Shown here: positions 3,387 through 44,987 of the stretch, piece after piece
How the letters are laid out: every line of letters starts with the position of its first letter
Numbering within the stretch: the stretch's first letter is position 1
Assembly (NCBI RefSeq): GCF_002007645.1
Contig: NZ_CP019791.1
Span: 1,426,001-1,490,000, forward strand
Direction of reading: 5' to 3'
Length of the DNA stretch: 64,000 bases
Source: Anaerohalosphaera lusitana
GTDB taxonomy: Bacteria; Planctomycetota; Phycisphaerae; Sedimentisphaerales; Anaerohalosphaeraceae
Program-made: the position numbers and the translations under genes
Notes under the pieces: generated by a model
Databases searched by the model: none
Told to the model about the DNA's origin: nothing
What the model saw: the letters and a program-made list of their open reading frames with translations, nothing else

Positions 3387-5492
3387 ATGATGAAGAAGCT
3401 ACTGTTAACTCTTGTTTTGTTGGTTGCCTTGGTTGGTATGGCCCAGGCAGAATTAATTTTTTCAGACGATTTTGAGTCCTATTCTGAAGGGGCAACTCCT
3501 GATTGGTACAATCCTAAAGGTGATGTCACGGTCGCGATCGACGACGGCTCTGTTTTTGAATCTGAAAATCAATATGTACATATCAATGATCCGGGTACGC
3601 AAACAACAGTATTGCGAGAACATTTATGGTATCATGTAGGAACTGATTACCCATCGAACACGTTTGCTACTCTGTCATTCGATATTAACGAACCTGATGA
3701 TAATGGCGGTGCCAGCTTCTACGTTAAACTCACTGATGGTACGGGGTCTAACTGGCTTAACCCATCTTCTGCGAGTGTCAGTTTTCTGAACGGCAGTATC
3801 TCGGCAAATGGTCAAACTGCATCTTACTCACTCGATATGCCGCACCATATTGATATCGTTGTGAATATGACAGGAGCATCAGGATCTTATTCCGGCACCA
3901 CGCTTCAGAGTTATCGCTATGACGTCTGGGTAGACGGTCAACTGGTTTTTGCCAATGTAGATTTTGACGGTGCAGCCACCCAGATTCTTGGGATCAACTT
4001 TGCAACAGCTAGCACCGGTTCGCAGTTAATGAATTTGGATAATGTTGAATTTCGCGATGAGATTTTTGTCGGTGAAGACCCCAGGGCTGCCAGTAATCCT
4101 GACCCAGCAAGCTTGCAGGAAGATGTTCCGCTGACCAAGGCATTGTCCTGGGAAGCAGGCATCGATCCAGATACAGGCAACTACGTCGATGTCTCTGAAT
4201 ACCATGTTTATATTGCATCCATCCTGGATATCAACGAGCTGGCGGACCCCAACTTGCTGGTTACTTATCCCGCCAATATCATCTCGGATGTTGTAGCTGA
4301 GACTGGATCTAATGGCGGTTCATGGACACCTCCGGCAGGTCTTCTTGCTCGAGACAATATCTACGCATGGCGTGTAGATGAGAAGCTGACTGACGGTACA
4401 ATTCTGACAGGAGCTAACTGGGGATTTTCAACAGTACTTTCTATACCTGATCTCAATGCCGCACTGCCGGAAGATGCTGTAGTCGGCGTTGGTGAAGATG
4501 CCGAACTTACCGTTGAAGCAACCAATCCATTCACTGGAGATTCTTCAGGATTGTCGTATCAGTGGATGTATTCGGCGGATGGCGTGACTTATTCTCCCGT
4601 GGGCACCAATAGCCCAGTTATGGCTATTACAGATGCCCAGGTTGCTGACCAGGGATATTATTACTGCGACGTAACCATTGACAGTAACAGTGAAACCGTA
4701 TCCAGTAAAATTGCACTGTTAGTCGTTAAGCAGGCATTGGCTCACTGGACAATGGATCAGGATGATTTTGTTAATGGCCAGTACGTTGATATCGTTGGTA
4801 CTTATAGCACCGAACCCAATTCAGCACCAACGTTTGTAACCGGTGCCGGTCCTGATGAACCTGCATTGGGTGCAGCAGTGATCAACCCTGACAGCTTTGC
4901 TGCTATTGGTACCTGGAACCCTCTGGAGTCTACAGGCCAGATGACTATCAGTGCCTGGCTCAAATGGGATGGAACAATTGGCGAGTACGGCAATGATATT
5001 CTGTCCAAGGGTGATGGCTGGGGTGCAGACATCATGATGTGGGCATTCAAGGTCCGTGGAGTTTCTGGCGGTAATGCGGGTGTTTGGTTCTATAGTCAGC
5101 CGGACTACGGTATAAGAGTTTCCGGACTGCTTCCTGAACAAGTCTGGACACATATCTGTCTGGCATTCGATTCGGGGCAGGCACGGCTTTACGCCGATGG
5201 CGAACTGGTAGCAACACGCAACAACTTTGCTTTAGGAACCGACACAGAATCATCCTTGAAGTTGGGCGGGGGTGCCGCATTCCCAGGTGCTATGGATGAA
5301 GTTATGATACACAACTACGCTATGTCAGCCGACGATGTAGCAGCCCTTTATTATGAAACTTCCCAGGAAGCTCTTTGTTTGTATCCTCCATCGATAGATC
5401 TAAACGACGACTGCCGTGTGGATCTAACAGATTTTGCAGTTCTTGCTCAAAACTGGCTTGAATGCGGAATGGTTCCGACTTGTTTGCCTTAA
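3387..5492 (+). CDS. Secreted LamG/Ig-like protein with dockerin-like C-terminal tail
   Basis: This 701-residue secreted multidomain protein has no recognised catalytic residue. Order: signal peptide (1-21, LLLTLVLLVALVGMAQA); a beta-sandwich starting FSDDFESYSEG (about 25-225, like domains that bind or coat glycans); an Fn3-like segment (about 230-350); an Ig-like domain ending DQGYYYCDVTID (about 365-445); a LamG/concanavalin-like domain beginning LAHWTMDQDDF (about 450-655); and a tail with DLNDDCRVDLTDF, then NWLECGMVP and a final Cys. GGGAGAAGT upstream fits a ribosome site. The LamG half is nearly the same as in the genes at 7387 and 15706. Likely role, inferred: glycan or cell-surface binding. 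Confidence 0.75.
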   Translation: MMKKLLLTLVLLVALVGMAQAELIFSDDFESYSEGATPDWYNPKGDVTVAIDDGSVFESENQYVHINDPGTQTTVLREHLWYHVGTDYPSNTFATLSFDINEPDDNGGASFYVKLTDGTGSNWLNPSSASVSFLNGSISANGQTASYSLDMPHHIDIVVNMTGASGSYSGTTLQSYRYDVWVDGQLVFANVDFDGAATQILGINFATASTGSQLMNLDNVEFRDEIFVGEDPRAASNPDPASLQEDVPLTKALSWEAGIDPDTGNYVDVSEYHVYIASILDINELADPNLLVTYPANIISDVVAETGSNGGSWTPPAGLLARDNIYAWRVDEKLTDGTILTGANWGFSTVLSIPDLNAALPEDAVVGVGEDAELTVEATNPFTGDSSGLSYQWMYSADGVTYSPVGTNSPVMAITDAQVADQGYYYCDVTIDSNSETVSSKIALLVVKQALAHWTMDQDDFVNGQYVDIVGTYSTEPNSAPTFVTGAGPDEPALGAAVINPDSFAAIGTWNPLESTGQMTISAWLKWDGTIGEYGNDILSKGDGWGADIMMWAFKVRGVSGGNAGVWFYSQPDYGIRVSGLLPEQVWTHICLAFDSGQARLYADGELVATRNNFALGTDTESSLKLGGGAAFPGAMDEVMIHNYAMSADDVAALYYETSQEALCLYPPSIDLNDDCRVDLTDFAVLAQNWLECGMVPTCLP
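4735..5490 (+). repeat. LamG-plus-tail segment repeated at 8995-9751 and, more divergent, at 17038-17803
   Basis: The DNA coding for the LamG domain and dockerin-like tail is strongly similar at nucleotide level to that of the gene at 7387. Many runs are identical, for example around GTAACCGGTGCCGGTCC and GGCGAGTACGGCAATGATAT. The gene at 15706 carries a third, more diverged copy. This is a dispersed coding repeat formed by duplication and probably kept alike by gene conversion. Confidence 0.7.
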
Positions 5493-5533
5493 ATTATCTT
5501 AATTGTAATGAAAGCTCTAATAGGAGATTAATA

Positions 5534-7273
5534 ATGAATACTAAGATTAGTATATTGCTTTTAATTGTGGCTCTGTTTGTTTCGGCCCCTGTCTTTGCGA
5601 CAACGGTGACATTGGACGGGCCCTGGTATACGGGTTCGGGCAGTGGAACTCCCTCACTGTCTGACCCCAACGCCGCCAGTTTTACCTGGGGCACGCCGAA
5701 TAGTACTGAGACTGCTAATAGCAGTCATTTGTGGTCGTATTTTGCCGATCAGGGCCTCTACGAAGACGGCGATTCGATTACGCTGTCGTTTACAGTTACG
5801 CCGGCGGATGCCACTGCGACTGGCGGAACATTGAGATTTGGTTTGTTTGATAGCAACGATCTTCAGGTACTCAACAACCTTAACCAGGCCACCGGAGATG
5901 ACGGTTTCCTTGAGACGTTGGGATATTTTTCGCAGTGCAATCAGGGCTCAGAAACAAATACGTCTTACCTGTTTGCTCGAACAGAAGGTAAAACAAATGA
6001 GCTTAGTTCCACCAGTCTTGTTGAACAGGTCACAAGCGGCGACGGATTTCCGAGGTTGACTGTGGGCACACCATACGACGTGACGCTGACCGTCACACGC
6101 AACAGTGCCACCGAATATCTTGTCACTTCGACGATCAATGGTGCTGTCGTAGGCGGTACAACCGCAACGATTAATGCAACATCTTTTGACATGGTGGGCT
6201 TCCTGAATGCAGGGACCGGCATTGAGAGTATGGAATTGGCTAATTTGCAGGTAACTGCTGAAAAGGTTCCGTTCATTACCGGCCAACCGGAAGATGTGAG
6301 CGCACTCGAAGGTGACCCTGCCTCATTGACGGTCACTGCGGTCAATCCCACTACCGGTGATGCTACCGGTTTGAGTTATCAATGGTACCGTGGCCTGAAT
6401 GGCGATACCACGACACCGGTGGGAGCGGATTCGGCTACGTATACGATTCCTTCTGTTACAATTGCTGATGAAGGAAGCTACTACTGTATCGTCACACTGA
6501 CCGGCAACGGTCAAGCCGAATCCCAGGCAGCAGCCCTGACCGTGAAACGTTTACTGGTTCATTGGCCCTTAGACGGGAACCCGAACGATCCGGCTGGTGA
6601 TTATGACGGCATCGAATATGGAGATCCGAATTATACGACGGGAGGCGGAGGATTGATCGGTGAGGCGATTGTCCTTGACGGTGTGGATGACAGGATAGAA
6701 TACACCTTCGCCCAACAGACGGAAATGCCGCAGTTTACAGTGACATTCTGGGCGCAGACATCGGATCCTGATCAGAGTGATTCTACGAGTTTGTTTAACA
6801 ATGGGGACGGTGCTTCTGTAAGCAATTTCCAGATTGATATGTCAGGAACCGGGGATTACGACTACACTGGTGGATATGCATCCGGGACCTTTGGGGCGGC
6901 CGAAACTGATACATGGATATTGCTTGGGGTGACGTATGATGGAACGACGACCAGACTCTATGCTGATGGTCAGCTTGTCGATTCCGCAGGTGACCAGCCC
7001 AACAATCGTTTTGATCGGTTCTGTGTCGGTGTAAATCGTGGTACCAGCAGATATTTCCAGGGCATCATCGATGATTTTCGTGTATATAACTATGCTCTGA
7101 CAAATGTCGATATGGCGCTTGTCTATACCGATGTAATGGGCGGCGAAATATGTGCCCAATCACCAGCCTATGATCTGAATGATGACTGTAGAGTCAATTT
7201 ACACGACTTTGCAATATTAACAGCGCAATGGCTTGAATGCGGAAGAGTTCCGGCAGAAGCGTGTGATCAGTAA
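5534..7273 (+). CDS. Secreted Ig/LamG protein with dockerin-like C-terminal tail
   Basis: This is a 579-residue exported protein. The ATG at 5534 is preferred over an upstream in-frame start at 5462, which would overlap the previous gene: TAGGAG lies eight bases upstream and a signal peptide follows at once (MNTKISILLLIVALFVSAPVFA). Then come a beta-rich domain (about 25-240), an Ig-like domain with LSYQWYRG and GSYYCIVTL (about 245-335), a LamG domain starting LVHWPLDGNPND (about 340-540), and the tail DLNDDCRVNLHDFAIL, QWLECGRVP, Cys. It lies 41 bases after the previous LamG gene, probably in the same transcript, and is followed by a strong terminator. It is less similar to the other LamG genes. 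Binding role inferred; no catalytic motif seen. Confidence 0.75.
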   Translation: MNTKISILLLIVALFVSAPVFATTVTLDGPWYTGSGSGTPSLSDPNAASFTWGTPNSTETANSSHLWSYFADQGLYEDGDSITLSFTVTPADATATGGTLRFGLFDSNDLQVLNNLNQATGDDGFLETLGYFSQCNQGSETNTSYLFARTEGKTNELSSTSLVEQVTSGDGFPRLTVGTPYDVTLTVTRNSATEYLVTSTINGAVVGGTTATINATSFDMVGFLNAGTGIESMELANLQVTAEKVPFITGQPEDVSALEGDPASLTVTAVNPTTGDATGLSYQWYRGLNGDTTTPVGADSATYTIPSVTIADEGSYYCIVTLTGNGQAESQAAALTVKRLLVHWPLDGNPNDPAGDYDGIEYGDPNYTTGGGGLIGEAIVLDGVDDRIEYTFAQQTEMPQFTVTFWAQTSDPDQSDSTSLFNNGDGASVSNFQIDMSGTGDYDYTGGYASGTFGAAETDTWILLGVTYDGTTTRLYADGQLVDSAGDQPNNRFDRFCVGVNRGTSRYFQGIIDDFRVYNYALTNVDMALVYTDVMGGEICAQSPAYDLNDDCRVNLHDFAILTAQWLECGRVPAEACDQ

Positions 7274-7295
7274 GCTCAATGTTTTATAATAAAAA

Positions 7296-7330
7296 GTCCG
7301 CGTCGCTTCGACGCGGGCTTTATTTTCTTT
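7296..7330 (+). terminator. Intrinsic terminator after the 3387/5534 LamG pair
   Basis: A nine-base stem GTCCGCGTC / GACGCGGGC (one G-T pair) closes a short GCTTC loop and is followed by TTTATTTTCTTT. A near-twin with the same GGGCTTTATT ending lies after the gene at 15706. Confidence 0.85.
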
Positions 7331-7386
7331 ATGCAGTTTTGTGTGATAATAGATGAAATTTGATTTTTAAATGGAACCTGGTCAAG

Positions 7387-9753
7387 ATGAGTATTATTAG
7401 TAAAAGAATAGTTTTGTGCTGGCTTTGTATGTCGGTTTTATTAGTTGCTAATTCTGTTTTGGCCCAGGCTCCTGAGACTTTTACTCAGAACGTGACTCAT
7501 GACGGCCAGACAATTACCTTGCAAATGGTTAAAGATTCTGTTCGAGGACCAGATTTCGAAGTCTTGGTCCAAAATGCCCAAGGCAATTATAATTCGTGGC
7601 AGCCTGGCGAAGTACGAACTTATATAGGTACTGTTTATCAAAGACCTGATGCCTATGCTGCTGGTATCTTGCTTGATAACGGGACATTCAAGGCAAGGGT
7701 GAACTTTGATCGCGGCAAAAGCTGGTGGACCCTGGGCAATTCTGTATACGATACCCACGGGACTCAATCAACTACTTATAATATCCCAACGATGCCCACT
7801 GTGTCGCCTGGCAAGGCAGGTTCCAGTACGTACAGCTTTGGGGTGGGGTTTGATTCGGACTACCAATATTATGCTCGTCGGGGCAGTGTCGCAGACTGTC
7901 TCGAAATGATGGAATTCACTGCGATAAATGTTAAAGCTCAGTATTTGCAAAATGTAATGTTGATGCCTGAACTGGGCCGAGTAATTATCAGGCCTTACTC
8001 GTCGCAATGCCCCTATGAGGGCGTTGGCGGCAATTTGCTTGGCGAATTCAGAACCCACTGGAATACGTATCATCCTGTTTCTGTGGCACCACGCGATGTA
8101 GCGGCACTGGTGAGCCCGACAATTGGCGGCGGTGTCGCCTGGGTTGGTGTTATCGGTTCCGGTTTTGCGTATTCTTCCAACGGCATCCGCTCAGATGGAT
8201 CTTTTGATGGTGTTTGGCGGCACGAGTTGGGCCATAACTGGGGTACCTCTGATTATCATGCCGGCAGCCCGGAAGGCCCAACAATGATGTGCGGTAATAA
8301 ATATGCCCGTTTCAATGGTCCGGCAGTAAAGTCCATCTTTGATCATCGCGATTCAAGAATTGACCGCTTTACTAATCTCGGCACGTACAGCAAAGTTAAT
8401 TTGCCTCCTTATGCTGCAATGGATTTTCTGGAAGGTATACATGCCGGCCAAAGTGTGACTATTGATGTGATGGCTAATGATCATGATGTAAACGGCCAGG
8501 ATTTGACCTTTTATGATTTCGAAACCTCTTCCTCTCAGGGTGGGACCATAACCCTCTCGGCCGGCACAGGTCCAAATGGCAGAGACGAACTGATTTATAC
8601 TGCACCAATTGGACTTTTTAATGCCAAAGATTATTTCCATTATACCATTAGGGACAGTGCAGGGGCTCGTTCTACGGGTGTTATTATACTGTCACTTTCA
8701 AGAAATTTAACAATAATCGGTCAGCCCGTTGATGAATATGTAATTCCTGACGAACAAGCATCATTTGCAGTTGATGCGGTAAATCCCTTTACAGGTGATG
8801 ATACCGGTTTGTCATTTCAGTGGAAGTATTCAGCAGATGGCAGTACTTATTCAAATGTAGCAGGCGGTACTGGTTCAACGCTCACCATTGCTGCCCCACA
8901 AAGTTCTGACCAGGGTTTTTATTATTGCGATGTGACCATAGATAGTAACGGCGAGATGGTTTCAAGTGAAACTGCCCAGTTAGTCGTGAAGCAGACTTTG
9001 GCTCACTGGACAATGGATCAGGATGATTTTGTTAATGGCAAGTATGTTGATATTGCCGGCTCCTATGATGCCGGTACGAGTTCAGTACCGACTTTTGTAA
9101 CCGGTGCCGGTCCAGATGAACCTGCATTCGGCGCAGCAGTCATTAATCCTGACAGCGATGCTGTAGCCGGCACCTGGAACCCACTTGAGTCTACAGGCCA
9201 GATGACCATCAGTGCCTGGGTTAAATGGAATGGAACCATTGGCGAGTACGGCAATGATATTCTGTCCAAGGGTGATAGTTGGGGCCCAGACACAATGATG
9301 TGGGCGTTTAAAATACGTGGAGTTTCTAGTGGCAAAGCCGGAATTTGGTTTTATAGTCAACAGGACACCGGTATAAGGAGTGCCGGACAAGTTCCAGAGC
9401 AAATATGGACACATATCTCTCTGGTATACGATTCCGGGCAGGCACGACTTTACGTCAACGGCAAGTTAATTACAACGCATGACAACTTTACATTGGGAAC
9501 CGGCACCGCATCTACGTTGAAAATAGGCGGCGGTGGCGCATTCCCAGGTGCTATGGATGAAGTCACAATACATAACTATGCCATGTCAGATGAAGATGCA
9601 GCAACGCTTTATTATGAAACTTCTCAGGAAGCTGTTTGCTTAAACCCACCATCGATAGATTTGAATGATGATTGTCGAGTGAATTTAAGTGATCTTCTAA
9701 TTATGGCGGAGTCTTGGGCGGATTGCGGTCTGGTGCCGGAATGCCGGCCCTAA
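7387..9753 (+). CDS. Secreted metzincin-type metallopeptidase with cadherin-like, Ig, LamG and dockerin-like regions
   Basis: This 788-residue exported protein is a probable zinc peptidase. The ATG at 7387 is preferred to a TTG at 7360 because the signal peptide (SIISKRIVLCWLCMSVLLVANSVLAQA) follows it directly. The peptidase part (about 60-340) has HELGHNWGTSD with His279, Glu280, His283 and Asp289 as third ligand candidate, and a Met-turn in GPTMMCGN (Met300/301), the metzincin pattern. Next come a cadherin-like VMANDHDVNG module (about 345-440), an Ig-like domain (about 445-535), LamG (about 540-745) and the tail DLNDDCRVNLSDLL, WADCGLVP, Cys. The LamG half is nearly identical to that of the gene at 3387. 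It might process surface or glycoprotein substrates; that is inference. Confidence 0.75.
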   Translation: MSIISKRIVLCWLCMSVLLVANSVLAQAPETFTQNVTHDGQTITLQMVKDSVRGPDFEVLVQNAQGNYNSWQPGEVRTYIGTVYQRPDAYAAGILLDNGTFKARVNFDRGKSWWTLGNSVYDTHGTQSTTYNIPTMPTVSPGKAGSSTYSFGVGFDSDYQYYARRGSVADCLEMMEFTAINVKAQYLQNVMLMPELGRVIIRPYSSQCPYEGVGGNLLGEFRTHWNTYHPVSVAPRDVAALVSPTIGGGVAWVGVIGSGFAYSSNGIRSDGSFDGVWRHELGHNWGTSDYHAGSPEGPTMMCGNKYARFNGPAVKSIFDHRDSRIDRFTNLGTYSKVNLPPYAAMDFLEGIHAGQSVTIDVMANDHDVNGQDLTFYDFETSSSQGGTITLSAGTGPNGRDELIYTAPIGLFNAKDYFHYTIRDSAGARSTGVIILSLSRNLTIIGQPVDEYVIPDEQASFAVDAVNPFTGDDTGLSFQWKYSADGSTYSNVAGGTGSTLTIAAPQSSDQGFYYCDVTIDSNGEMVSSETAQLVVKQTLAHWTMDQDDFVNGKYVDIAGSYDAGTSSVPTFVTGAGPDEPAFGAAVINPDSDAVAGTWNPLESTGQMTISAWVKWNGTIGEYGNDILSKGDSWGPDTMMWAFKIRGVSSGKAGIWFYSQQDTGIRSAGQVPEQIWTHISLVYDSGQARLYVNGKLITTHDNFTLGTGTASTLKIGGGGAFPGAMDEVTIHNYAMSDEDAATLYYETSQEAVCLNPPSIDLNDDCRVNLSDLLIMAESWADCGLVPECRP

Positions 9754-9805
9754 ACAGATTCTAAGATATGATGTTCATTTTGATATTAAGAAGCGGAGAC
9801 AAAAA

Positions 9806-10621
9806 ATGAAGAACAAAAAGGCGTTTACACTAATTGAATTGCTAGTGGTAATATCAATCATAGCCCTTCTGTTGGCTATTATGATGCCTTCGTTGTCCAT
9901 GGTTAAGCGAAAGGCTGGAACTGCGGTATGCCTGGCTAACACAAAGAATCTCTCACTCGCCTGGTATATGTATCAGGAGGATAACGCAGGTGCCCTCATT
10001 GGCGGTCGGTCGAGCAAACAGACACCCTGGATTAAAGACCCGATTGACGAGTCCGGCAACGCTTTGCCAGTTTCTCGTCTTTGGGCCGAATCTCCGCCTG
10101 TAACGGATGACGACGAGATTCGCGGCATAAAAGCTGGCTATTTATATAGTTATTTGGAAGCAGACGGTGTCTATAATTGTCCTTCGGATAATATCCGAAG
10201 AGGTTTCGATGGAACAAGGGTTTATGTTAGTTATTCGATTCCCCGTTGTCTTAACGGCGATTTTCCGAAAGAGCGGAAGAAGTTCTCACAAATAACCAGA
10301 CCCTCAATTCGGTATAATTTTGTTGAAAATGCCGACGAGCGAAACTGGAATATGGGTGGCAGTTTCCCCCTTGGAGCCCCGGAGTACACCGGAAATGACG
10401 AGTGGGCCTGGTGGGGACCTTTGGCGGTGAATCATGGCGACAGCAGTGTCCTGGGCTTTTGTGACGGGCATGCGGAAGTTCACAAGTGGAAAGACGAATT
10501 TACAAAATCGCGAGTGGATAAACTCAACGATACAGATTCCAATAATTACGGTATAGAAAGACCCCCTGAGGGCCAGACTGAGGATATTGATTACATGGCA
10601 AGAGGTTGGGCAACTCGCTAG
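9806..10621 (+). CDS. Type II pseudopilin-like protein (prepilin N-terminal methylation site)
   Basis: This 271-residue protein starts with a basic leader and KAFTLIELLVVISIIALLLAIMMPSL: a prepilin peptidase site followed by the Glu5-containing hydrophobic helix of type IV pilins and type II pseudopilins. The globular part begins AVCLANTKNLSLAWYMYQEDN and ends in a region with GFCDGHAEVHKW, the conserved H/G-DG motif of the large planctomycete family of such proteins. AAGCGGAGAC upstream is a reasonable ribosome site. It sits between the metallopeptidase and the multiheme cytochrome. In this phylum such proteins are numerous and of unknown individual function; a role in secretion or a surface fibre is likely. 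Confidence 0.85.
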   Translation: MKNKKAFTLIELLVVISIIALLLAIMMPSLSMVKRKAGTAVCLANTKNLSLAWYMYQEDNAGALIGGRSSKQTPWIKDPIDESGNALPVSRLWAESPPVTDDDEIRGIKAGYLYSYLEADGVYNCPSDNIRRGFDGTRVYVSYSIPRCLNGDFPKERKKFSQITRPSIRYNFVENADERNWNMGGSFPLGAPEYTGNDEWAWWGPLAVNHGDSSVLGFCDGHAEVHKWKDEFTKSRVDKLNDTDSNNYGIERPPEGQTEDIDYMARGWATR

Positions 10622-10840
10622 ATGCTGTTTGAAAACAGATTCTGGAAACTGCCAATATAAACTCTTTGATTCTTGTCGACAACAAGGTATGCGACATGAT
10701 GAGGAAATTCAGGGAGACCGATCAAAAAAATAACTTGTGAAAGTGTGATGGCAAACTTGTTCATAGTGGGATTTCCAGGTTAATTGTGAATTCCCTATGA
10801 AACAGTGCGACTTGAATAAATGGTATTTGTTGTTTAGTTC

Positions 10841-13249
10841 TTGCAAAGAGTAATTTGCTTTGGTAGGCTCAATAAGGTGTGTTGTAAAACTGTTTCTATT
10901 GCCGGCCTTGTTCTGTTTTCTGTTGTAATTGTCGGAATCAGTCAGTTCCGTTCACTGGCAAGTAATCCTCAGCAGACATCTAAAGAATACGTGGGATCCT
11001 CACAATGCCGGTCCTGCCACGAGAAGTTCTACCAACTGTGGGCGCCTTCGTATCATGGTCAGGCGATGAGGCCTTACACCAAAACGTTTGCTCAAGAAAA
11101 TCTGGTTGATCATGAAGAAAGCATTGAGGTTGGTTCCAATAACTATCGTGCCGTAATAGATGGGGAGCCGGGACACGTACTGGAGGTCGGACCTCAGGGC
11201 GAAAAGAAATACCCCATCCTTCACGCGATGGGGGGCAAGGACGTCTTCTACTTTCTGACAGAACTTGAGCGGGGATTTCTACAGGTTCTTCCTGTAGCAT
11301 TTGACGTGCAAGATCAGCAGTGGTTTGATACCGCCGCAAGCGCGGTTCGACATTTTTCCAGCGGAGATGAGGATGAACCGCTCGACTGGAAAAATCGTGC
11401 TTATACTTTCAATACTTCGTGTTACGGCTGTCACGTCAGTCAGTTGGTAAAGAATTACGATCCACAAACAGATACCTATAATACGCAATGGCAGGAACCG
11501 GGGATCAACTGTGAAACCTGCCACGGCCCGGCCGCCGAACATATAAGGGTATGCGAACAAGCCGGCCAGGGCGACGCCCCAGAGGATCTGAAACTGGTGA
11601 CAGTCACACAGAGTCGCGGCTATTCGGCTCATCAGGTAAACGCATCTTGTTCAACCTGTCATGCGAAGGCCGGTCCAATAACCGCAGAGTTTATGCCAGG
11701 CGATGCCTTTTTCAAGCATTACGATCTAACGACGTTGGAGCACCCTGATTACTATCCGGACGGCCGTGATCTGGGTGAGAACTATACTTATACGAGTTGG
11801 CTCATGAACTCCTGCGTTGAAAGCAGCGATCTGGATTGCATGTACTGCCATACCTCCAGTGGTCGATACCGATTCGAGGGATCGCAGGCTAATGATGCCT
11901 GCATTGAGTGTCATGAAGAGAAGGCCGATATCGCAAAGCATTCTCGACACGCCACCGAAACAGGAGTGACAGAATGCGTTCAGTGCCACATGCCCAAAAC
12001 CGAATTCGGCCGAATGGCGCGCAGCGACCACTCTTTCCGGCCGCCAATGCCTTCTGCAACGTTACGCTATAAATCGCCAAATGCTTGTAACATTTGCCAC
12101 ACAGATAAAGATGCTTCCTGGGCGGATGATAAGGTTCGCCGGTGGCACGATGACGATTATCAGGAAGCGACACTTCAGGTGGCCGATCTAGTGGCCCAGG
12201 CACGGCAAGATGAATGGGAAAATCTGCCGCAGATGCTGGATTACATCCAGCAGAAGGACCGCAATGTAGTTTTCGCAAATTCCCTGATCCGTTTGATGCG
12301 CCAAAAATCGGACCCAACCATTGGTTCTGATCTTTGTCATATAATTGTTCACGATAAATCTCCTCTGATCCGTGCAAGCGCAGCCGATGCACTGGGTGGG
12401 TACCTTGATAATGAGAGCATATCTTTACTGGCTGAGGCCACCACTGACGAATACCTGCTGGTGCGGATCAGGGCCGCTGCAGCGCTGTCACCGGTTCCGG
12501 TAGATCAGATCCCACCGGCTTACAAAGCTGCATTTCAAAAAGCCACTGATGAGTACCTCAAGGCAATGATGGCCCGCCCAGACAATGCATTTTCACATTA
12601 CAATCTTGGCAATTTCTTCATGGATAAAAATAAACCAGGTAAAGCCATCAACCGTTTTGAATTTGCCATGAAGCTCGACCATGACCTCATTCTTCCGTAT
12701 GTAAATGCTTCGATAGCGTACAACACCCTAGGCCAGAATGACAATGCCATCGAGACTCTCAAAAAGGCGATTGAGATTGATCCTGAAAACGTTGCCGCAC
12801 ATTTGAATCTTGCCTTGCTGTACGGAGAAACGGGCAATTACAGCCTTGCTGAGCAACATTTCCGCAGGACCTATGAACTCGATGCTGATTCTGCTGCTGC
12901 AGCATATAATCTTTCGGTTCTCCTGGCTGAAAAACAGCCGCTAGAGGCCATAGATTGGGCGCGTAAAGCGGTAGAGTCAGCACCAGATAATACGCGATAT
13001 GTCTTTGCACTTGCTTACTTTTTGCAACAAAACCATAAGACAGAAGAGGCAATTGTCCTGCTGGAGCCTTACGCTAACGCACAAATAGCTGACCCCAATA
13101 TTTATATGCTTCTTGCAAGCATTTACGAAGGACGTGGAGATTTACAAGCAGCAATTCGTACTTATAAAGCAGCTTCCGAGAACGAGCAACTGCCGCAGCA
13201 GATACGAACCAGATTCCGGATGCATGTGCAGCGGTTAAATGGCTGGTAA
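10841..13249 (+). CDS. Octaheme c-type cytochrome fused to HEAT and TPR repeats
   Basis: This protein of about 802 residues has eight CxxCH heme-binding motifs: CRSCH (56-60), CYGCH, CETCH, CSTCH, CMYCH, CIECH, CVQCH and CNICH (416-420). An N-terminal hydrophobic segment (VSIAGLVLFSVVIVG) acts as signal or anchor. After the hemes come HEAT-like helices (about 450-545) and tetratricopeptide repeats (about 555-795, with NPDNAFSHYNLGN-like and AAHLNLALLYGETGNY units). The start is uncertain: TTG at 10841 is the first possible codon after a stop, and GTG at 10877 is an alternative. The architecture is known in planctomycetes and related anaerobes and suggests periplasmic electron transfer, perhaps within a larger complex held by the TPRs. 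Its substrate is unknown. Its place among polysaccharide genes is notable. Confidence 0.8.
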   Translation: MQRVICFGRLNKVCCKTVSIAGLVLFSVVIVGISQFRSLASNPQQTSKEYVGSSQCRSCHEKFYQLWAPSYHGQAMRPYTKTFAQENLVDHEESIEVGSNNYRAVIDGEPGHVLEVGPQGEKKYPILHAMGGKDVFYFLTELERGFLQVLPVAFDVQDQQWFDTAASAVRHFSSGDEDEPLDWKNRAYTFNTSCYGCHVSQLVKNYDPQTDTYNTQWQEPGINCETCHGPAAEHIRVCEQAGQGDAPEDLKLVTVTQSRGYSAHQVNASCSTCHAKAGPITAEFMPGDAFFKHYDLTTLEHPDYYPDGRDLGENYTYTSWLMNSCVESSDLDCMYCHTSSGRYRFEGSQANDACIECHEEKADIAKHSRHATETGVTECVQCHMPKTEFGRMARSDHSFRPPMPSATLRYKSPNACNICHTDKDASWADDKVRRWHDDDYQEATLQVADLVAQARQDEWENLPQMLDYIQQKDRNVVFANSLIRLMRQKSDPTIGSDLCHIIVHDKSPLIRASAADALGGYLDNESISLLAEATTDEYLLVRIRAAAALSPVPVDQIPPAYKAAFQKATDEYLKAMMARPDNAFSHYNLGNFFMDKNKPGKAINRFEFAMKLDHDLILPYVNASIAYNTLGQNDNAIETLKKAIEIDPENVAAHLNLALLYGETGNYSLAEQHFRRTYELDADSAAAAYNLSVLLAEKQPLEAIDWARKAVESAPDNTRYVFALAYFLQQNHKTEEAIVLLEPYANAQIADPNIYMLLASIYEGRGDLQAAIRTYKAASENEQLPQQIRTRFRMHVQRLNGW

Positions 13250-13368
13250 GCTTGAACTGGTGCCGTCACAAAAATGTATATTATATTATGTTTTATTGTA
13301 AAAAAAGCCAAAATGCGATCTTGCAAAATATAGATTGATTTTGCACAACAGTGAAAGACGTTAGCAAA

Positions 13369-15525
13369 ATGAAATTAAACTTTTTTATAGTAATATCACT
13401 GCTGGCATTGTCTGGTAATTACCCAATAGCTTTTGGAATAGAAGGACTTACTGTCGAGTACCTCCGCCAACCAGGCGATGAAGGTGTGACCGTAGCCGAC
13501 TTGAAACCGGAATACGGGTGGATAGTTGATGAGCAGACAGAGTTTCAGAAAGCTTACCAGATTATAGTTTCTTCCTCGAGAGACGCATGTGAGAAAACAG
13601 AAGGCAATGTATGGGACAGCGGCCGAGTCTTGAGCTCAACTTCCAGTAATATCGAGCACGGTGGGAACGCTCTGGAGGAAAATGCAGAGTATTTCTGGAA
13701 GGCTCGCATCTGGGACAAGGGAAACGAGGCTGGGCCGTATTCGTCGATTCAGAATTTTAGAACCGGTGCGCCTGGTAATACGATCTCCTCGGCCAATCGC
13801 TGGCAGATCGAGCGCATAAAGCCTGTGAGGGTCGTCAGAACATCCCCCAAGAGCATATTTGTTGATTTTGGAAGGGCGGCATTCGGTACGTTGGAAATTG
13901 ATTATATAACGCCGGCCAAAGATAGGCTGACTATTCATCTCGGCGAGAAAGCCAAGGGCGGCAGTATAGATCGCGAACCAGGTGGGACCATTCGTTACCA
14001 GAAAGTTGAGCTGGAGGTTCGGCCCGGGCAGACTTCGTATAAAATTGAACTGACGCCTGATAAGAGGAATACTGGTTCGCGGGCTATCAAACTGCCCGAA
14101 TCGTTCGACGTGGTCATGCCGTTTAGATATGTAGAAATTGAAAACATAGATAGTACGTTGACATCCAATAATATTCGTCAGAAGGCGTATTTTTACTATT
14201 TCAATGACCGGCAAAGTGAATTTAGCTGCAGTGATGAACGACTTGAGAATATCTGGGATATGTGTAAATATAGTATGAAAGCCACCAGCTTCTGCGGACT
14301 TTATATAGATGGTGATCGAGAACGTATACCCTATGAGGCGGACGCTTATATAAATCAGCTCGGACATTACTGCGTCGATAATGAATACTCGATCGCCAAA
14401 CAGACGATCGAGTACTTTATTGACCACCCAACCTGGCCTACGGAATGGCTGCTGCATACGCCGATGCTTGTGTACCAGGATTATTATTATACAGGCGATA
14501 CGGAGTTGATCGAAGCATACTACGATAAGCTAAAGCATAAGACGCTCATTGCGCTTGCAAGGAAAGACGGACTGATCTCTACCCATAATGAGAAGGCTGG
14601 CAGTAAAGGATACCTCAAGAAACTTGGTTTCGCCAGTCCGCCGCACAGAGGAATTCGTGACATTGTTGACTGGCCCAGGAATGAGCGTGACGGTTATAAT
14701 ATGGTCGCTGTCAATACCGTGGTCAATTGTTTCTTCTATCGCAACATGCAAATAATGGCCGAATTTGCGGACCTTCTTGGAAAGATCGATGATGCTGATT
14801 ATTATAGGGAAATGGCGGCCAAAGTGAAGCGATCCATAAATACAAAGATGTTTGACGAAAAACGTGGGATCTATGTTGATGGCCTGGATACTGACCATGC
14901 GGCTCTGCACGCAAATATGATGCCGCTTGCTTTCGATATTGTTCCTGATGAGCACATTGACACAGTTGTTGAATTCGTAAAGTCTCGGGGCATGGCATGC
15001 AGTGTTTACGGTGCGCAATATCTGCTTCAGGGTCTCTACCGTGCGGGCCAAAGTCAGTATGCACTGGACCTTATGCGGGCTGCACATCAGCGTAGTTGGT
15101 GGAACATGATCAAGGTCGGGTCAACAATTACACTTGAAGCATGGGATATGAAGTATAAACCAAATGCTGACTGGACTCATGCTTGGGGAGCTGCTCCGGC
15201 AAACATCGTAGCGAGGTTTATGTGGGGTATTCAACCTTCGAAGCCCGGATTTCAAGCTGTTAGGATCAAGCCACAATTGGCTGATCTTAAGCAAAGTATA
15301 ATAACGATGCCGACGATCAAGGGTGCTATTCGCTGTGAATTCAAAGGGAAGAATGCACAGTCGGGCGTTTATATCATCGAACTACCGGGTAATATGACGG
15401 GAGAGTTTGTGCTGCCGGGTGACATCGCCGTCCAACTCAATGACCAGGTTATGAACAACGCGGCAGATGAGTTGAAGCTGATGCCCGGCCGTAATTTGAT
15501 AAAATTTAAAAGACGTTTACATTAA
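13369..15525 (+). CDS. Secreted alpha-L-rhamnosidase, GH78
   Basis: This 718-residue exported glycosidase probably releases terminal alpha-L-rhamnose. The ATG at 13369 is preferred to a GTG at 13351 since it starts the signal peptide (KLNFFIVISLLALSG). An N-terminal Fn3-like region of GH78 enzymes has P-x-Y-G-W and AEYFWKARIWDKG. The beta domain follows (about 130-270), then the (alpha/alpha)6 barrel. Barrel motifs include YIDGDRERIPYEAD, which holds acidic residues of the active centre, WLLHTPMLVYQDYYYTGD, LEAWD, and WTHAWGAAPANI near the end, with the C-terminal beta domain after GIQPSKPGF. These are typical of bacterial GH78. Together with the nearby pectate-lyase-like and esterase genes this points to rhamnose-bearing polysaccharide such as rhamnogalacturonan or ulvan-like glycans. 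Confidence 0.82.
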   Translation: MKLNFFIVISLLALSGNYPIAFGIEGLTVEYLRQPGDEGVTVADLKPEYGWIVDEQTEFQKAYQIIVSSSRDACEKTEGNVWDSGRVLSSTSSNIEHGGNALEENAEYFWKARIWDKGNEAGPYSSIQNFRTGAPGNTISSANRWQIERIKPVRVVRTSPKSIFVDFGRAAFGTLEIDYITPAKDRLTIHLGEKAKGGSIDREPGGTIRYQKVELEVRPGQTSYKIELTPDKRNTGSRAIKLPESFDVVMPFRYVEIENIDSTLTSNNIRQKAYFYYFNDRQSEFSCSDERLENIWDMCKYSMKATSFCGLYIDGDRERIPYEADAYINQLGHYCVDNEYSIAKQTIEYFIDHPTWPTEWLLHTPMLVYQDYYYTGDTELIEAYYDKLKHKTLIALARKDGLISTHNEKAGSKGYLKKLGFASPPHRGIRDIVDWPRNERDGYNMVAVNTVVNCFFYRNMQIMAEFADLLGKIDDADYYREMAAKVKRSINTKMFDEKRGIYVDGLDTDHAALHANMMPLAFDIVPDEHIDTVVEFVKSRGMACSVYGAQYLLQGLYRAGQSQYALDLMRAAHQRSWWNMIKVGSTITLEAWDMKYKPNADWTHAWGAAPANIVARFMWGIQPSKPGFQAVRIKPQLADLKQSIITMPTIKGAIRCEFKGKNAQSGVYIIELPGNMTGEFVLPGDIAVQLNDQVMNNAADELKLMPGRNLIKFKRRLH

Positions 15526-15705
15526 TGTCTTTATTTTGCTTGGAGCTTACTCAAAGATGATGGCTTAAGAAAAGCCGGTAATCAGGCATGGCATAATGGC
15601 AAGGCCGAAGCAGCTATGTTATGGGTTCAAAGCCAGTGCTTGTTATTGCGACTGTTAGTAAAAAATATTAATAATCTTGTAACGTTTAATTGATGGAGGT
15701 AGGTG

Positions 15706-17805
15706 ATGAAGAACTTTATTTTAACTCTTGTTTTGTTGGTTGCCCTTGTCGGCTTTACTCAGGCGGCTACAGTTTTCACGGAAGACTTCGAAAGCTACAC
15801 GGACGGCTCTGTTTTTGACGATCCGGATTGGTTCGTTAATATGGCCACTTATATTTTGGCTGATGACGGAAATGTCTTTACGTCGCCTTCGAATATGTAT
15901 GCTGAGTTCCTTGATGACTCTACCAGCGGTTCATTAATCATATCAAAAGGTGGGTTCGACTTAACCGATTCTGTTGTTTCAGTTTCATTTGACTTTTACG
16001 AGCCGACATCTTCAACTTTCGGCGGCCAACTTGTTATTTGGCCCAGGTCCAGTGCCGGAAACGAATGCGCGGATGTGAGATTCAGTAACGGCTCCATTCA
16101 AGGTTCTACTGAAACATACACATTAGATGAACCGCATCATTTCGACCTTGTTATCAACCTGTCAAACACCTCTGCAGGATATTCCACCGGTGAATCTGTT
16201 GCAGGTTACAGGTATGATGTCTGGTTCGACGGTGTTAAAGTTATTGATGAGAAGGAGTTCCGTGATGATCCAGCGAGTACAGATTCAGAGGTATTAAACG
16301 CAGTTCAATTCAGGGTTTTTAGCAGTAACATACAACAAATTTATGTGGATAATATCGTGGTCCGTGATACGCCTTATGTCCAGGATGCTCGAATAGCTCA
16401 AAATCCTGTCCCAGAGGATGACGCTGCAAATGTAGACTTGGCTGAGGTATTGTCCTGGGACGCAGGAACAGACCCGGCAACTGGCAATCCTGTAAGCGTT
16501 GATGAATACTATGTTTATATTGCCGGTCCAATCACGGATTCAAGTCAGGTTTATGATCCCAATGTTTTTACAGATCAGAATCTTTCGATTGCATCTTCTA
16601 TCATTTCTGAAACCGGATCGAACGGCGGTTCCTGGACACCTCCGGCAGCTTACCTCGGAACAGACACCACCTATGTATGGTGTGTAGATCAAAAACTGAC
16701 CGGCGGTACTATTGTTCCAGGTGTGAACTGGTCATTTACAACAATACCGTCTGTACCTATTCTTAATCCCGAACTGCCGGCAGATACAACAGCAGGTATC
16801 GGTGAGGATGCCGAACTTAGCGTTGAGGCAACTAACCCGTTTACCGGAGATTCTACAGGGCTGTCATATCAATGGATGTACTCGCAGGACGGAGTTAGTT
16901 ATTCAGATGTAGGTACCGGTCCGATTTTGTCTATTGACAGTGCTCAGGCAACTGACCAGGGCTACTACTACTGCGACGTAACCCTTGACAGCAATTCTGA
17001 AACAGTATCCAGCAGAACCGCTTTCTTAATCGTTAAGGAAACACTGGCTCACTGGACACTGGACCAGGCTGATTATGTTGGAGGTGTCCATCTTGATATT
17101 GTCGGCGGACATGATGCCGACCCGAATGGTGAACCAACGTTCGTTACCGGTGCAGGTCCGGACGAACCGGCGTTAGGTGCAGCAAAGATTGAAGCTGACA
17201 CAGATGCTGTTGCAGGTACATGGAATCCATCAGAAACTACAGGCCAGGTCACTGTAAGTGCCTGGATTAACTGGGACGGATCTGGTCTCGCCCAATATGG
17301 TAATGACATTATAGGCAAGTTTGACGGCTATGCTCCAGACACCATGATGTGGTCAATTCGCATCCGGGATATTAACAGTGGTAATGCCGGTATTCGTTTT
17401 TATAATGACAGTGGATTGACGGTACACCCCCAAGGGGTAATACCACCGAATACATGGACTCATGTAGCAGCAACATACGCCCCTGGCGAGGGTAAGGTCT
17501 ATATCAATGGTGAACTGGTGGCAACAGATGCCAATGCGGCATTGGGCACAGGGACAGAATCAGTGATCACTATAGGCGGTAGTGGTATTTTCCCGGGTGC
17601 TATGGACGAAGTTATGATACATAACTATGCCATGTCTCCTGAAGATGTCGCAACGCTTTATTACCAGACTTCTCAGGAATCAGTTTGTCTCTATCCTCCG
17701 TTAGTAGACTTAAATGACGACTGTCTAACTGATTTGCTGGATTTTGCAATTCTAGCTGAAAACTGGATTTATTGTGGAAGAGTTCCCGCAGCAGGTTGCG
17801 ATTAA
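15706..17805 (+). CDS. Secreted LamG/Ig-like protein with dockerin-like tail, paralog of the gene at 3387
   Basis: This 699-residue exported protein has the same plan as the gene at 3387: signal peptide (MKNFILTLVLLVALVGFTQA), a FTEDFESYTDG beta-sandwich domain, an Fn3-like segment with DEYYVYIAGP, an Ig-like domain ending DQGYYYCDVTLD, LamG starting LAHWTLDQADY, and the tail DLNDDCLTDLLDFAIL, NWIYCGRVP, Cys. GGAGG six bases before the ATG at 15706 fixes the start over a GTG three bases earlier. The first 20 codons share long identical stretches with the 3387 gene, so both ends of the gene have been duplicated. No catalytic residues were recognised. It lies 180 bases after the rhamnosidase gene and is closed by its own terminator. 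Likely a surface or polysaccharide-binding component. Confidence 0.75.
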   Translation: MKNFILTLVLLVALVGFTQAATVFTEDFESYTDGSVFDDPDWFVNMATYILADDGNVFTSPSNMYAEFLDDSTSGSLIISKGGFDLTDSVVSVSFDFYEPTSSTFGGQLVIWPRSSAGNECADVRFSNGSIQGSTETYTLDEPHHFDLVINLSNTSAGYSTGESVAGYRYDVWFDGVKVIDEKEFRDDPASTDSEVLNAVQFRVFSSNIQQIYVDNIVVRDTPYVQDARIAQNPVPEDDAANVDLAEVLSWDAGTDPATGNPVSVDEYYVYIAGPITDSSQVYDPNVFTDQNLSIASSIISETGSNGGSWTPPAAYLGTDTTYVWCVDQKLTGGTIVPGVNWSFTTIPSVPILNPELPADTTAGIGEDAELSVEATNPFTGDSTGLSYQWMYSQDGVSYSDVGTGPILSIDSAQATDQGYYYCDVTLDSNSETVSSRTAFLIVKETLAHWTLDQADYVGGVHLDIVGGHDADPNGEPTFVTGAGPDEPALGAAKIEADTDAVAGTWNPSETTGQVTVSAWINWDGSGLAQYGNDIIGKFDGYAPDTMMWSIRIRDINSGNAGIRFYNDSGLTVHPQGVIPPNTWTHVAATYAPGEGKVYINGELVATDANAALGTGTESVITIGGSGIFPGAMDEVMIHNYAMSPEDVATLYYQTSQESVCLYPPLVDLNDDCLTDLLDFAILAENWIYCGRVPAAGCD

Positions 17806-17834
17806 TAATCTCTAATGGTTGTTTTAATGATAAA

Positions 17835-17866
17835 GTCCGTGCCGTTTGGCGCGGGCTTTATTATTC
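17835..17866 (+). terminator. Intrinsic terminator after the 15706 LamG gene
   Basis: GTCCGTGCC pairs with GGCGCGGGC (two G-T pairs) around a GTTT loop, followed by TTTATTATT. It is closely similar to the terminator at 7296, so the end of the gene was duplicated along with its coding part. Confidence 0.85.
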
Positions 17867-17930
17867 TCACGTAAGTTTTGTTAGGCCATAGAAGAAGTCA
17901 GATAAACTTTTTAAATAAGATCTTGCTAAG

Positions 17931-20036
17931 ATGAATATTTTTTGTAAAAAGTGCTTTGTCTTTTTTTTATTTTTCAGTTTATGTTTTGCTCTGTACGCAC
18001 AGTCATACGAAGCGGAAGACGCGGTTTTAAACCAGGTTTTACCCAAAGTCGATCCGGGAGCCTCTGGTGGCTACCGGGTTGCTTACTTTGATAACATCGG
18101 TGATTATATCAGGTTTGATGATGTTACCGCCGGTGACCAATTAGTTATTACATATTCGCTAGGGTTGTCCGAGAGCAAACAGTGCAGTTTATACTGCGAC
18201 AATGTTGACGTGGCAACAGCGGTATTTCATCCTACCGGCTCGTGGGATACCTATAGCCAACTGGGAATATCGGCATCTGCTGAGAGTACTGTAATGTTAA
18301 GAGTCGATGCCGATGACGAACTTGCAAATAGCTATTATTCCAGCGCTTCGATAGATAAAATTGAGCTTTCGTCAACCTACTGGCGCAGCAGCTTATATCC
18401 TGAAAACTGGACACCGGGCTACAAAGATAGCCAGGGACGTTTTCTGCATGATTTTTCCTATGCAGGATACAGGAAAGGTCAAGCCGACCTGGGACAGGCC
18501 ATTCCCTCAACAATTATCGATGTAACCAAACCACCATACAATGCCGATAACACTGGAAATAAAGATTCTACCAATGCCATTCAGGCTGCCATAGACTATG
18601 CAGCATCGGTTGGTGGAGCAGTAGTATACCTGCCCGCGGGCAAATACACTGTAAGCCCTCAAAACAACGATAATTATGCGATTCGTGTCTCTTCGAGTAA
18701 TATTGTTCTTAGAGGTGACGGCCCGGAAAACACGAAAATATTCAATAATGAAACATACATGCGCAGCAAAAGCGTAATTCTTTTTGCGCCGGCTTATGGA
18801 TATTCAGCCTGGTTCACTCCTGTTGCAGATTCTGAAATTGCCATTACTGCTGATATACCTGGACCAACAAATACCATCCAAGTCGCGTCGACCTCGGGCC
18901 TTAATGCTGGGGATTGGATTATTGTTCGCACCGATTGTACCGAAGATTTCATTGCTGATCACAATATGAGCGGCATATGGACCAGCAGTCTTAAGGGAAC
19001 CGCACTTTATCGCCGTATCACAGGCGTTAATCCGATTGCTAAAACCATCACAATTGATATCCCTACACGTTATTGGATGAAGACCCGGGATAATGCCAGG
19101 GTCTACAAGATCCCTGATCATATTGAAGAAGTCGGTATTGAACATTTGTCGATTGGTATGCTTGAAAATCCAAATGATGGACTTGGCGATGGAGACTACG
19201 CAGTTGAAGGGACAGCCGCCTATGAAGTCCACTCCTCTGAAGTGATAACGTTTGCTAATATCGTTGACGGCTGGATAAGTGATATTCAGACCTATCGTCC
19301 AGAAGAAAACACCGGTGACTATCATGTACTTTCAAACATAATATTACTGGAAAAATCACGAAACATCACCGTGAGAGGATGTTCACTAGCCAAGCCCCAA
19401 TACGAAGGCGGAGGCGGCAATGGATATGCCTATATACTTTCAGGCAATGACTGCCTTCTGGTTGACTGCAAGGCATATCATACCAGGCATAATTACTCTT
19501 TCAAAAGCATGTGGACCTGTGGAAATGTACTATATCGATGCGAATCAAAAGACCCACGCCTGACAGCCGATTTCCATATGCATCTAAGTCCGGCGAATCT
19601 TATCGATAGTAATCGCATGGATAACGACACATGGAATGCCAAATATCGGCCCTACGGTACAATCATCCACGGTCACACGACAAGCCAAACGGTCTTCTGG
19701 AATACATACGGAGAAGGCGGAAAAAGCTATCTTATAGATTCCAAGCAATGGGATATGGGTTATGTAATTGGCACTTCCGGCACGGTGGATAATGTTATTC
19801 TGGGTAATTCTTACGGCTCAGAGCCAGAGGATTTCCTGGAAGGCGAAGGCCTCGGCGAAACTCTTGAGCCCCAATCGCTATTTGTAGATCAGTTAACACG
19901 CCGAAACGGCGATGTCCCTTCATATCTTAGAACTCTCACAGCCGATTTTAACAACGACGGTGTTTTCGATATGGTTGATATGTCATACTTTTTTGAACAC
20001 TGGCTCGATTGCGGTTTGGTTCCGCATTGTAACTGA
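17931..20036 (+). CDS. Secreted CBM6/35-like plus pectate-lyase-3-type beta-helix protein with dockerin-like tail
   Basis: This is a 701-residue exported protein. After the signal peptide (IFCKKCFVFFLFFSLCFALYAQ), a carbohydrate-binding domain of the CBM6/35 kind starts SYEAEDAVL and includes GGYRVAYFDNIGDYIRF (about 24-150). The main part begins VTKPPYNADNTGNKDSTNAIQ, then AAIDYAASVGGAVVYLPAGKY, the entry strand of Pectate_lyase_3 / GH28-like right-handed beta-helices (about 195-640). The tail has ADFNNDGVFDMVDM, HWLDCGLVP, HC. Such proteins are polysaccharide lyases or hydrolases, often on pectin-like or alginate-like substrates, but the catalytic residues could not be assigned. A weak hairpin follows the stop. 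Context with GH78 supports pectin-type polysaccharide. Confidence 0.75.
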   Translation: MNIFCKKCFVFFLFFSLCFALYAQSYEAEDAVLNQVLPKVDPGASGGYRVAYFDNIGDYIRFDDVTAGDQLVITYSLGLSESKQCSLYCDNVDVATAVFHPTGSWDTYSQLGISASAESTVMLRVDADDELANSYYSSASIDKIELSSTYWRSSLYPENWTPGYKDSQGRFLHDFSYAGYRKGQADLGQAIPSTIIDVTKPPYNADNTGNKDSTNAIQAAIDYAASVGGAVVYLPAGKYTVSPQNNDNYAIRVSSSNIVLRGDGPENTKIFNNETYMRSKSVILFAPAYGYSAWFTPVADSEIAITADIPGPTNTIQVASTSGLNAGDWIIVRTDCTEDFIADHNMSGIWTSSLKGTALYRRITGVNPIAKTITIDIPTRYWMKTRDNARVYKIPDHIEEVGIEHLSIGMLENPNDGLGDGDYAVEGTAAYEVHSSEVITFANIVDGWISDIQTYRPEENTGDYHVLSNIILLEKSRNITVRGCSLAKPQYEGGGGNGYAYILSGNDCLLVDCKAYHTRHNYSFKSMWTCGNVLYRCESKDPRLTADFHMHLSPANLIDSNRMDNDTWNAKYRPYGTIIHGHTTSQTVFWNTYGEGGKSYLIDSKQWDMGYVIGTSGTVDNVILGNSYGSEPEDFLEGEGLGETLEPQSLFVDQLTRRNGDVPSYLRTLTADFNNDGVFDMVDMSYFFEHWLDCGLVPHCN

Positions 20037-39512: not shown

Positions 39513-40082
39513 ATGCACATCAGTGAGATCAAGTACGGTGACCTGCAAAAGTTAAAAGAAAAAGCTCGGATTGAAACCAATGCAAAGCAGCGAGATCGAT
39601 ATCGGGTGGTAGCCCTGGCATTGGAGGGATGGCAAACAAAAGCGATCATGACAAAACTTGATCGCAGCAAAAACTTCGTTCAGCGATGGTGTTATTTCTA
39701 CCGTGATGGCGGCATTGAGGCTATCGCACCAAAACGTCAAAGCGGCAGGCCTACAAAACTGCCACGCAAAAAAGAGCCTGAGTTGATCAAGCGAATTCAA
39801 GATGGACCAACCGATTCAGACGGTGGTGTATGTGTGCTACGCGGCAGAGACATAAGACGGATTCTTGAAAGAGAATTTGGCGTAAAATATTCGCTCTTCG
39901 GCGTCTATGATCTAATGCATAGATTGGGGCTTTCATGTCTAAAACCAAGGCCTAAGCACCGAAAGAACGATCCGGAAAAAATGCAGCAGTGGTTGGAGCA
40001 AGCCCCCTTTTTGTCCAAAAAGTCCGAACAGAAAACCCCGAAAAGAAAATTGAGATCTGGTTCCAGGACGAAGTGCGAATAG
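39513..40082 (+). CDS. IS630 transposase, N-terminal frame (DNA-binding part)
   Basis: This 189-residue frame carries the helix-turn-helix region of an IS630 transposase (GWQTKAIMTKLDRSKNFVQRWCYFYRDGG) and the second winged-helix segment (RGRDIRRILEREFGVKYS, YDLMHRLGLSCLKPRP). It runs to a stop at 40082 and overlaps the next frame by 94 bases. The catalytic part lies in the -1 frame (next entry), so the full enzyme needs a -1 ribosomal shift, as is common in the family, or a mutation has broken it. AAAGGA precedes the ATG. Confidence 0.9.
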   Translation: MHISEIKYGDLQKLKEKARIETNAKQRDRYRVVALALEGWQTKAIMTKLDRSKNFVQRWCYFYRDGGIEAIAPKRQSGRPTKLPRKKEPELIKRIQDGPTDSDGGVCVLRGRDIRRILEREFGVKYSLFGVYDLMHRLGLSCLKPRPKHRKNDPEKMQQWLEQAPFLSKKSEQKTPKRKLRSGSRTKCE

Positions 40083-44814: not shown

Positions 44815-44987
44815 TTAATTATAACGGATTGGTGGAGGGGGAACAACCTTTTTTTGCGGGTGGTGGGGATTTCGCGGGTTTTGTACGGGAAAATGCGTGA
44901 TTTGGGTTGTTTTTGGGGCGTTTTTCTGGTATAAAAGGTGGCTTGAGTCTATATCACACTTGTGTTTATAATCTCGGAGCCCTGGCG

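Follow-up and report, generated by a model that had tools for sequence, protein, structure and literature searches.

Planctomycetes break down complex polysaccharides of marine origin. They secrete many lectin-like proteins and enzymes, which raises the question of what keeps these attached to one another or to the cell. A 64,000-nucleotide stretch of the Anaerohalosphaera lusitana genome (NZ_CP019791.1, positions 1,426,001 to 1,490,000; the window, whose own coordinates are used below unless genome positions are named) poses this question on a small scale. Five exported proteins encoded there end in the same short tail with one calcium-type loop and several cysteines. We asked what this tail is related to, how widely it is used and what it may serve for.

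Five exported proteins of the window share a tail

All five carriers are encoded on the plus strand, and an open reading frame check reproduced exactly the protein ends given in an earlier, sequence-only note (5492, 7273, 9753, 17805 and 20036). Sec-type signal peptides, recognized by eye, at the start of all five agree with their proposed export. Carrier 1 (3387-5492) is an Ig-LamG protein (LamG_3, E 6e-20) with a tail at 5376-5489, CLYPPSIDLNDDCRVDLTDFAVLAQNWLECGMVPTCLP, containing all four cysteines discussed below and a C3-x5-C4 spacing. Carrier 2 (5534-7273), for which we shifted the start from 5462 to an ATG behind AGGAG, is likewise an Ig-LamG protein; its four-cysteine tail (7151-7270) has C3-x7-C4. 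Carrier 3 (7360-9753) comprises an M12-like peptidase with Big_9, Ig and LamG domains and a four-cysteine C3-x5-C4 tail (9637-9750), and carrier 4 (15703-17805), a further Ig-LamG protein, has a four-cysteine C3-x7-C4 tail (17686-17802). Carrier 5 (17931-20036) is a pectate-lyase-like beta-helix protein, which matches the BT_3328 lyase family in part, at a score far under the cut-off (83.8 bits). Its tail (19944-20033) has Gly at loop position 6, lacks both C1 and C2 and retains C3-x5-C4.

The tails span 38-40 residues in four carriers and 30 in carrier 5. Their alignment shares D-x-N-x-D, a ligand Asp at loop position 12, the Trp, C-G-x-V-P and the last cysteine. Each contains a single calcium loop, as first noted, and W-x-x-C-G-x-V-P with a cysteine 1-3 residues from the C-terminus is present in all five. 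The proposed loop motif with D-x-N-x-D-C was found in four; carrier 5 has G in place of the cysteine and D-M, while the third protein has D-L for D-F. Other parts of the description needed revision. Instead of two added cysteines, four tails have four: C1 six residues upstream of the loop, C2 inside it at position 6, C3 at W+3 and C4 near the C-terminus. Nor is the distance between the last two fixed, being C-x5-C in three tails and C-x7-C in two.

By eye, the region 175-34782 resembles a polysaccharide-utilization cluster. Besides the tail proteins, it comprises genes for a FecR-like regulator, an esterase, a multihaem cytochrome-like TPR protein and rhamnosidase-like, GH38-like mannosidase, GH130-like, sodium/solute symporter-like and fucosidase-like proteins. 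An IS630-like transposase at 39513-40561 is split into overlapping frames (39513-40082 and 39989-40561).

The tail is related to one dockerin repeat

Compared with solved structures, a profile of the tail matched dockerins best, led by 2y3n_B from Bacteroides cellulosolvens (E 1e-7), whose two repeats were matched separately and which shares a D-L-N-x-D...L-A-Q-x-(F/W) pattern, followed by other dockerins. A profile-profile comparison with non-cysteine loops of the same genome gave a 97% match over loop and helix. By sequence, the tail is thus a half dockerin, homologous to one repeat of calcium loop plus helix. As in PF00404 dockerins, the carriers are exported and often glycan-active, but the tail has one repeat instead of two, Cys for Gly at loop position 6 and two extra cysteine pairs. 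It also falls under the Pfam threshold: on ten lone tails, the dockerin model reached at best 15.9 bits against a gathering cut-off of 22.9. For comparison, the two-loop dockerin at 48084-48212 (plus strand), the C-terminus of a beta-helix-like exported protein (44907-48221), scored 31.4 bits with PF00404.

In an AlphaFold model of a 47-residue tail (mean pLDDT 82), the loop and a single helix at residues 26-38 are confident; Foldseek returned no match for this model. With the preceding LamG domain included (4698-5489), it retrieved only generic jelly-roll lectin folds, the best being a GH43 arabinanase domain; matches of the latter model to toxin lectin domains reflect the common fold only.

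Half-dockerins that work as such are already known. In Ruminococcus flavefaciens FD-1 (PMC5301203, PMC5934362), the group-2 half-dockerins, described as truncated versions of a group-4 (type III) dockerin, bind cohesin with Ka of 10^6-10^7 per M, and their partner is a cohesin of the ScaE type on the cell surface. There, as here, a single dockerin repeat ends an exported protein; in R. flavefaciens it keeps individual exported proteins on the cell surface. That system differs in its known cohesin partner and its occurrence in one species rather than across an order, and the available text describes no paired cysteine brackets. The earlier note had weighed its proposal against the tail being an ordinary truncated type I dockerin, already in Pfam and with known cohesin partners. 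One half of that description applies, the tail being a dockerin-repeat homologue with functional half-dockerins on record (PMC5301203), but the tail has no Pfam entry as such and no known cohesin partner.

Dozens of exported proteins carry the tail

An HMM built from the five tails gave 139 matches across the genome, a single contig of 4.25 Mb. Chance is ruled out as the source of the likeness: with the five training tails left out, the best new match had an E value of 1e-16. Around these matches, ~105 open frames contained a module scoring at least 14 bits, 63 of them in the cysteine form and 42 in a non-cysteine form. A crude hydrophobicity test identified a signal-peptide-like start in 61 of the 63 cysteine-form carriers. 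One module per carrier is usual, and the great majority of cysteine-form carriers have a single loop; the genome also encodes covalent two-loop versions, in which loop and helix follow the same consensus. The Pfam dockerin model matched 13 of the 42 non-cysteine-form carriers, and Dockerin_1 was not among the 25 commonest Pfam families of the 63 cysteine-form carriers. Pfam assigned LamG_3 to 44 and Ig_3 to 26 of these 63, along with NAGLU, GH43 and alpha-fucosidase domains (single cases), sialidase-type domains and others. The claim that the tail sits on different folds thus holds genome-wide, where carriers are many and unrelated, but less so in the window, where LamG precedes the tail in four of five proteins (the peptidase included) and a beta-helix, lyase-like domain in one. 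Several carriers (L063, L064, L072, L087 and L090) have a loop variant with an insert in the calcium loop, for example D-I-T-G-P-D-G-E-P-D-C.

At a profile threshold of E 1e-6, 116 of the 118 genomes from the order Sedimentisphaerales had the cysteine form. Of 150 genomes sampled across the class, 24 matched, all but one within the order, and in a phylum-wide sample only six members of the order did. Outside the order, this amounts to 1 of 127 genomes from its own class and none of 229 sampled from other parts of the phylum. Tail counts per genome are lower bounds, and many genomes have at least about 60. Among named records, a narrow tail alignment, in which the loop insert of one row was taken out for searching only, found six loci, all of Phycisphaerae/Sedimentisphaerales type and including Anaerohalosphaeraceae MAGs; a whole carrier as query found no named relatives.

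Two cysteine pairs vary independently

Of the single-loop modules in the genome, 38 have both C1 and C2, two have one of them (one module each) and 21 have neither (Fisher p 4e-14). The corresponding values for C3 and C4 were 26, two and three, and 30 (p 1e-11), whereas associations across the pairs were much weaker (p 1e-3 to 1e-4). Because many of the modules are paralogues, the events behind these counts are not independent. In a stricter C-terminal listing, all four cysteines occurred in 30 modules, the first pair alone in ten and the second alone in a few; window tail 5 lacks exactly the first pair. The commonest spacings are C1-x6-D and either C3-x5-C4 or C3-x7-C4. Such co-variation is what two separate, putative disulfides would leave. 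A single four-cysteine metal site is unlikely, since each pair is kept or lost as a unit. We infer the disulfides rather than assert them, because neither DsbB (PF02600) nor VKOR (PF07884) was matched anywhere in the genome, despite dozens of exported proteins with paired cysteines. In nearly identical paralogues at genome positions 1380745-1387741 (L063), one tail ends in CGLSPQEVCPQ and the other in CGLSPQEVYAL; the near-identity indicates that the last cysteine was lost or gained recently.

A comparable bracket exists in Excalibur (PF05901), an extracellular domain with a single calcium loop in which an upstream cysteine is bonded to a loop cysteine and which folds only with calcium, as seen by NMR of CbpL (PMC5137146). 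Both are small and extracellular and combine one calcium loop with an upstream and a loop cysteine. They differ in the place of the latter: beside the last ligand in the Excalibur motif DxDxDGxxCE, for Gly at position 6 in the tail loop DxNxDCxVxxxD. The tail additionally has a longer helix and a second cysteine pair, and neither the ten lone tails nor the window carriers gave a PF05901 match in Pfam. Among the literature searched, we found no description of the cysteine-bracketed tail.

A doubly hydrophobic helix points to docking

Pooled over several species, 117 cysteine-form modules are hydrophobic at positions 10, 13, 14, 16, 17, 20 and 21 in 88-100% of cases and vary at 11, 18 and 19; position 10 alone is hydrophobic in 99%, next to the variable position 11. 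The hydrophobic positions lie on two faces of a single helix, one with 13/16/20 and the other with 10/14/17/21. Hydrophobic contacts dominate the 2y3n complex, where mutating Met17/Met50 and Phe27/Phe60 abolishes cohesin binding (PMC8063739). In the numbering used here, these residues are repeat positions 10 and 20. As a 40-residue monomer can hardly bury both hydrophobic faces, we infer that the tail docks, although the conserved face can instead serve packing on the module's own ends.

The reading we prefer, with the balance about even, is that the tail is a cysteine-bracketed half-dockerin that docks exported proteins to a partner other than a recognizable cohesin. A single dockerin repeat, with the calcium loop D-x-N-x-D-C-x-V-D-L-x-D and one helix ending in W-L, would be bracketed by two probable disulfides. 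One of them, C1-C2, would link the chain entering the module to loop position 6; the other, C3-C4, would close a short hairpin with Pro that follows the helix. The tail would probably be folded by calcium, whereupon the hydrophobic helix would dock the carrier, mostly an Ig-LamG protein and in some cases a glycan-active enzyme, to a cell-surface partner or another exported protein. The cohesin-binding group-2 half-dockerins of R. flavefaciens (PMC5301203) serve as a precedent. More tentatively, and at somewhat less than even confidence, this docking may be an order-wide, cohesin-independent system. In it, dozens of exported proteins per cell would display a disulfide-bracketed half-dockerin, read by a receptor or by pairing with another half, and would form a surface-bound assembly for glycan binding and degradation.

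Among the points that count against docking, 34 of 65 cysteine-form modules lie 13-25 residues behind a LamG match, as expected of a LamG accessory. This near-constant distance leaves room for a passive cap, that is, a calcium- and disulfide-stabilized end element that shields LamG and similar domains from proteolysis and has no partner. The usual single copy per carrier also fits such a cap, as do the conserved residues, which are mostly those that a small fold needs. We nevertheless regard it as unlikely: at least 20 modules occur away from LamG, be it attached to unrelated domains, at interdomain positions or close to the N-terminus, and a ~12-residue helix with two conserved hydrophobic faces is not easily buried in a 40-residue monomer.

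Docking could also proceed without any scaffold if half-dockerins of two exported proteins paired in a calcium-dependent manner into a complete two-loop unit. Single EF-hands pair on calcium binding, and the covalent two-loop versions in the genome, which share the loop and helix consensus, offer a model for such a split dockerin that needs no cohesin. The C1-C2 and C3-C4 brackets may, however, fill the place of the missing half instead, and we judge pairing of this kind to be quite unlikely.

The module is portable rather than terminal

The earlier note had called the tail a sorting or docking tag. Docking remains the best reading of that phrase, but internal and N-terminal copies speak against sorting by a C-terminal signal. 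Most modules in this genome, including about nine in ten of the four-cysteine modules, end no more than about 17 residues from the stop codon, as expected of a C-terminal sorting or secretion signal that a dedicated transporter or sortase reads and perhaps cleaves. Against this, four-cysteine modules also occur internally, upstream of sialidase-like domains (genome positions 1553061- and 1555337-) and of an endonuclease-like domain (3552195-), and an internal two-cysteine module precedes a GH16-like domain (1106084-); the names of these downstream domains are sequence readings without individual Pfam assignment. Several non-cysteine loops sit directly behind the signal peptide. As modules are found both internally and right after signal peptides, the tail is a portable domain and not a terminal signal. 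PEP-CTERM and LPXTG signals are strictly C-terminal and have a hydrophobic or basic stretch, whereas the tail has internal copies and no such sortase-type stretch. The C-terminal domains of T9SS cargo are likewise strictly C-terminal and Ig-like, but the tail is modelled as one helix only. One cysteine pair is, moreover, often lost. A sorting signal is thus very improbable.

Cohesins are nearly absent from tail-bearing genomes

That no cohesin is encoded in the window was borne out. Elsewhere in the genome, we found a single cohesin protein, a subtilase of ~1966 aa (contig C1, 2212747-2218644, minus strand), with two cohesins and its own two-loop dockerin-like C-terminus; a relative's genome encodes a 2069-aa counterpart, also with two cohesins. 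Across the order, PF00963 cohesins were detected in six of 118 genomes. With an order-specific profile built from these finds, 16 well-assembled genomes that bear tails were tested, and 14 had no cohesin, two of these 14 being single contigs with 55-60 tails each. We therefore rejected a cohesin as the general partner on distribution. Among the tail-richest genomes, cohesin-positive ones are more frequent than among the others (4 of 20 versus 2 of 98, p 0.007), an excess that genome size may explain. That the tail is an ordinary dockerin bound by conventional cohesins is hardly credible: the two-cohesin subtilase and its counterpart, this enrichment and the cohesin-binding half-dockerins of R. 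flavefaciens (PMC5301203) favour it, but tails far outnumber cohesins in genome coverage and persist in cohesin-free single-contig genomes.

Two related cases from planctomycetes involve cohesins. The 'planctosome' of freshwater Nemodlikiaceae is a hypothetical non-cellulosomal cohesin/dockerin complex (PMC6461901) with a two-protein scaffold and peptidases as clients, while nearly all tail-bearing species lack cohesins. In the available text on Limihaloglobus sulfuriphilus (PMC11557425), the largest scaffoldin listed has two cohesins, like the subtilase here; half-dockerin tails are not described in that text, and scaffoldins of this kind are not a general feature of the order.

Our search found no partner for the tail. 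One candidate group was solo prepilin-like genes (48 genome-wide; 9806-10621 in the window), of which 16 lie within 3 kb of tail genes against 5.9 by random rotation (p 0.004); prepilin-like genes in T2SS-like clusters showed no such excess. We rejected them as partners, the co-location probably stemming from joint polysaccharide gene clusters.

Implications

While functional half-dockerins are already known from R. flavefaciens (PMC5301203), the tail described here appears to be new in its order-wide use, its cysteine brackets and its missing partner. Strongest among the new facts are the independent co-variation of two cysteine pairs, a distribution almost confined to a single order and the cohesin-free status of nearly all carriers. 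In the richest species, some 60 or more proteins per genome display this sharply defined tag, which has no known reader; how secreted lectin-like proteins and enzymes are kept together or on the cell thereby becomes open to direct tests. Should the reader be something other than a cohesin, the dockerin fold would have acquired a second use, and, if the docking proposal is true, the tail would represent a compact, ~40-residue, calcium-switchable tag.
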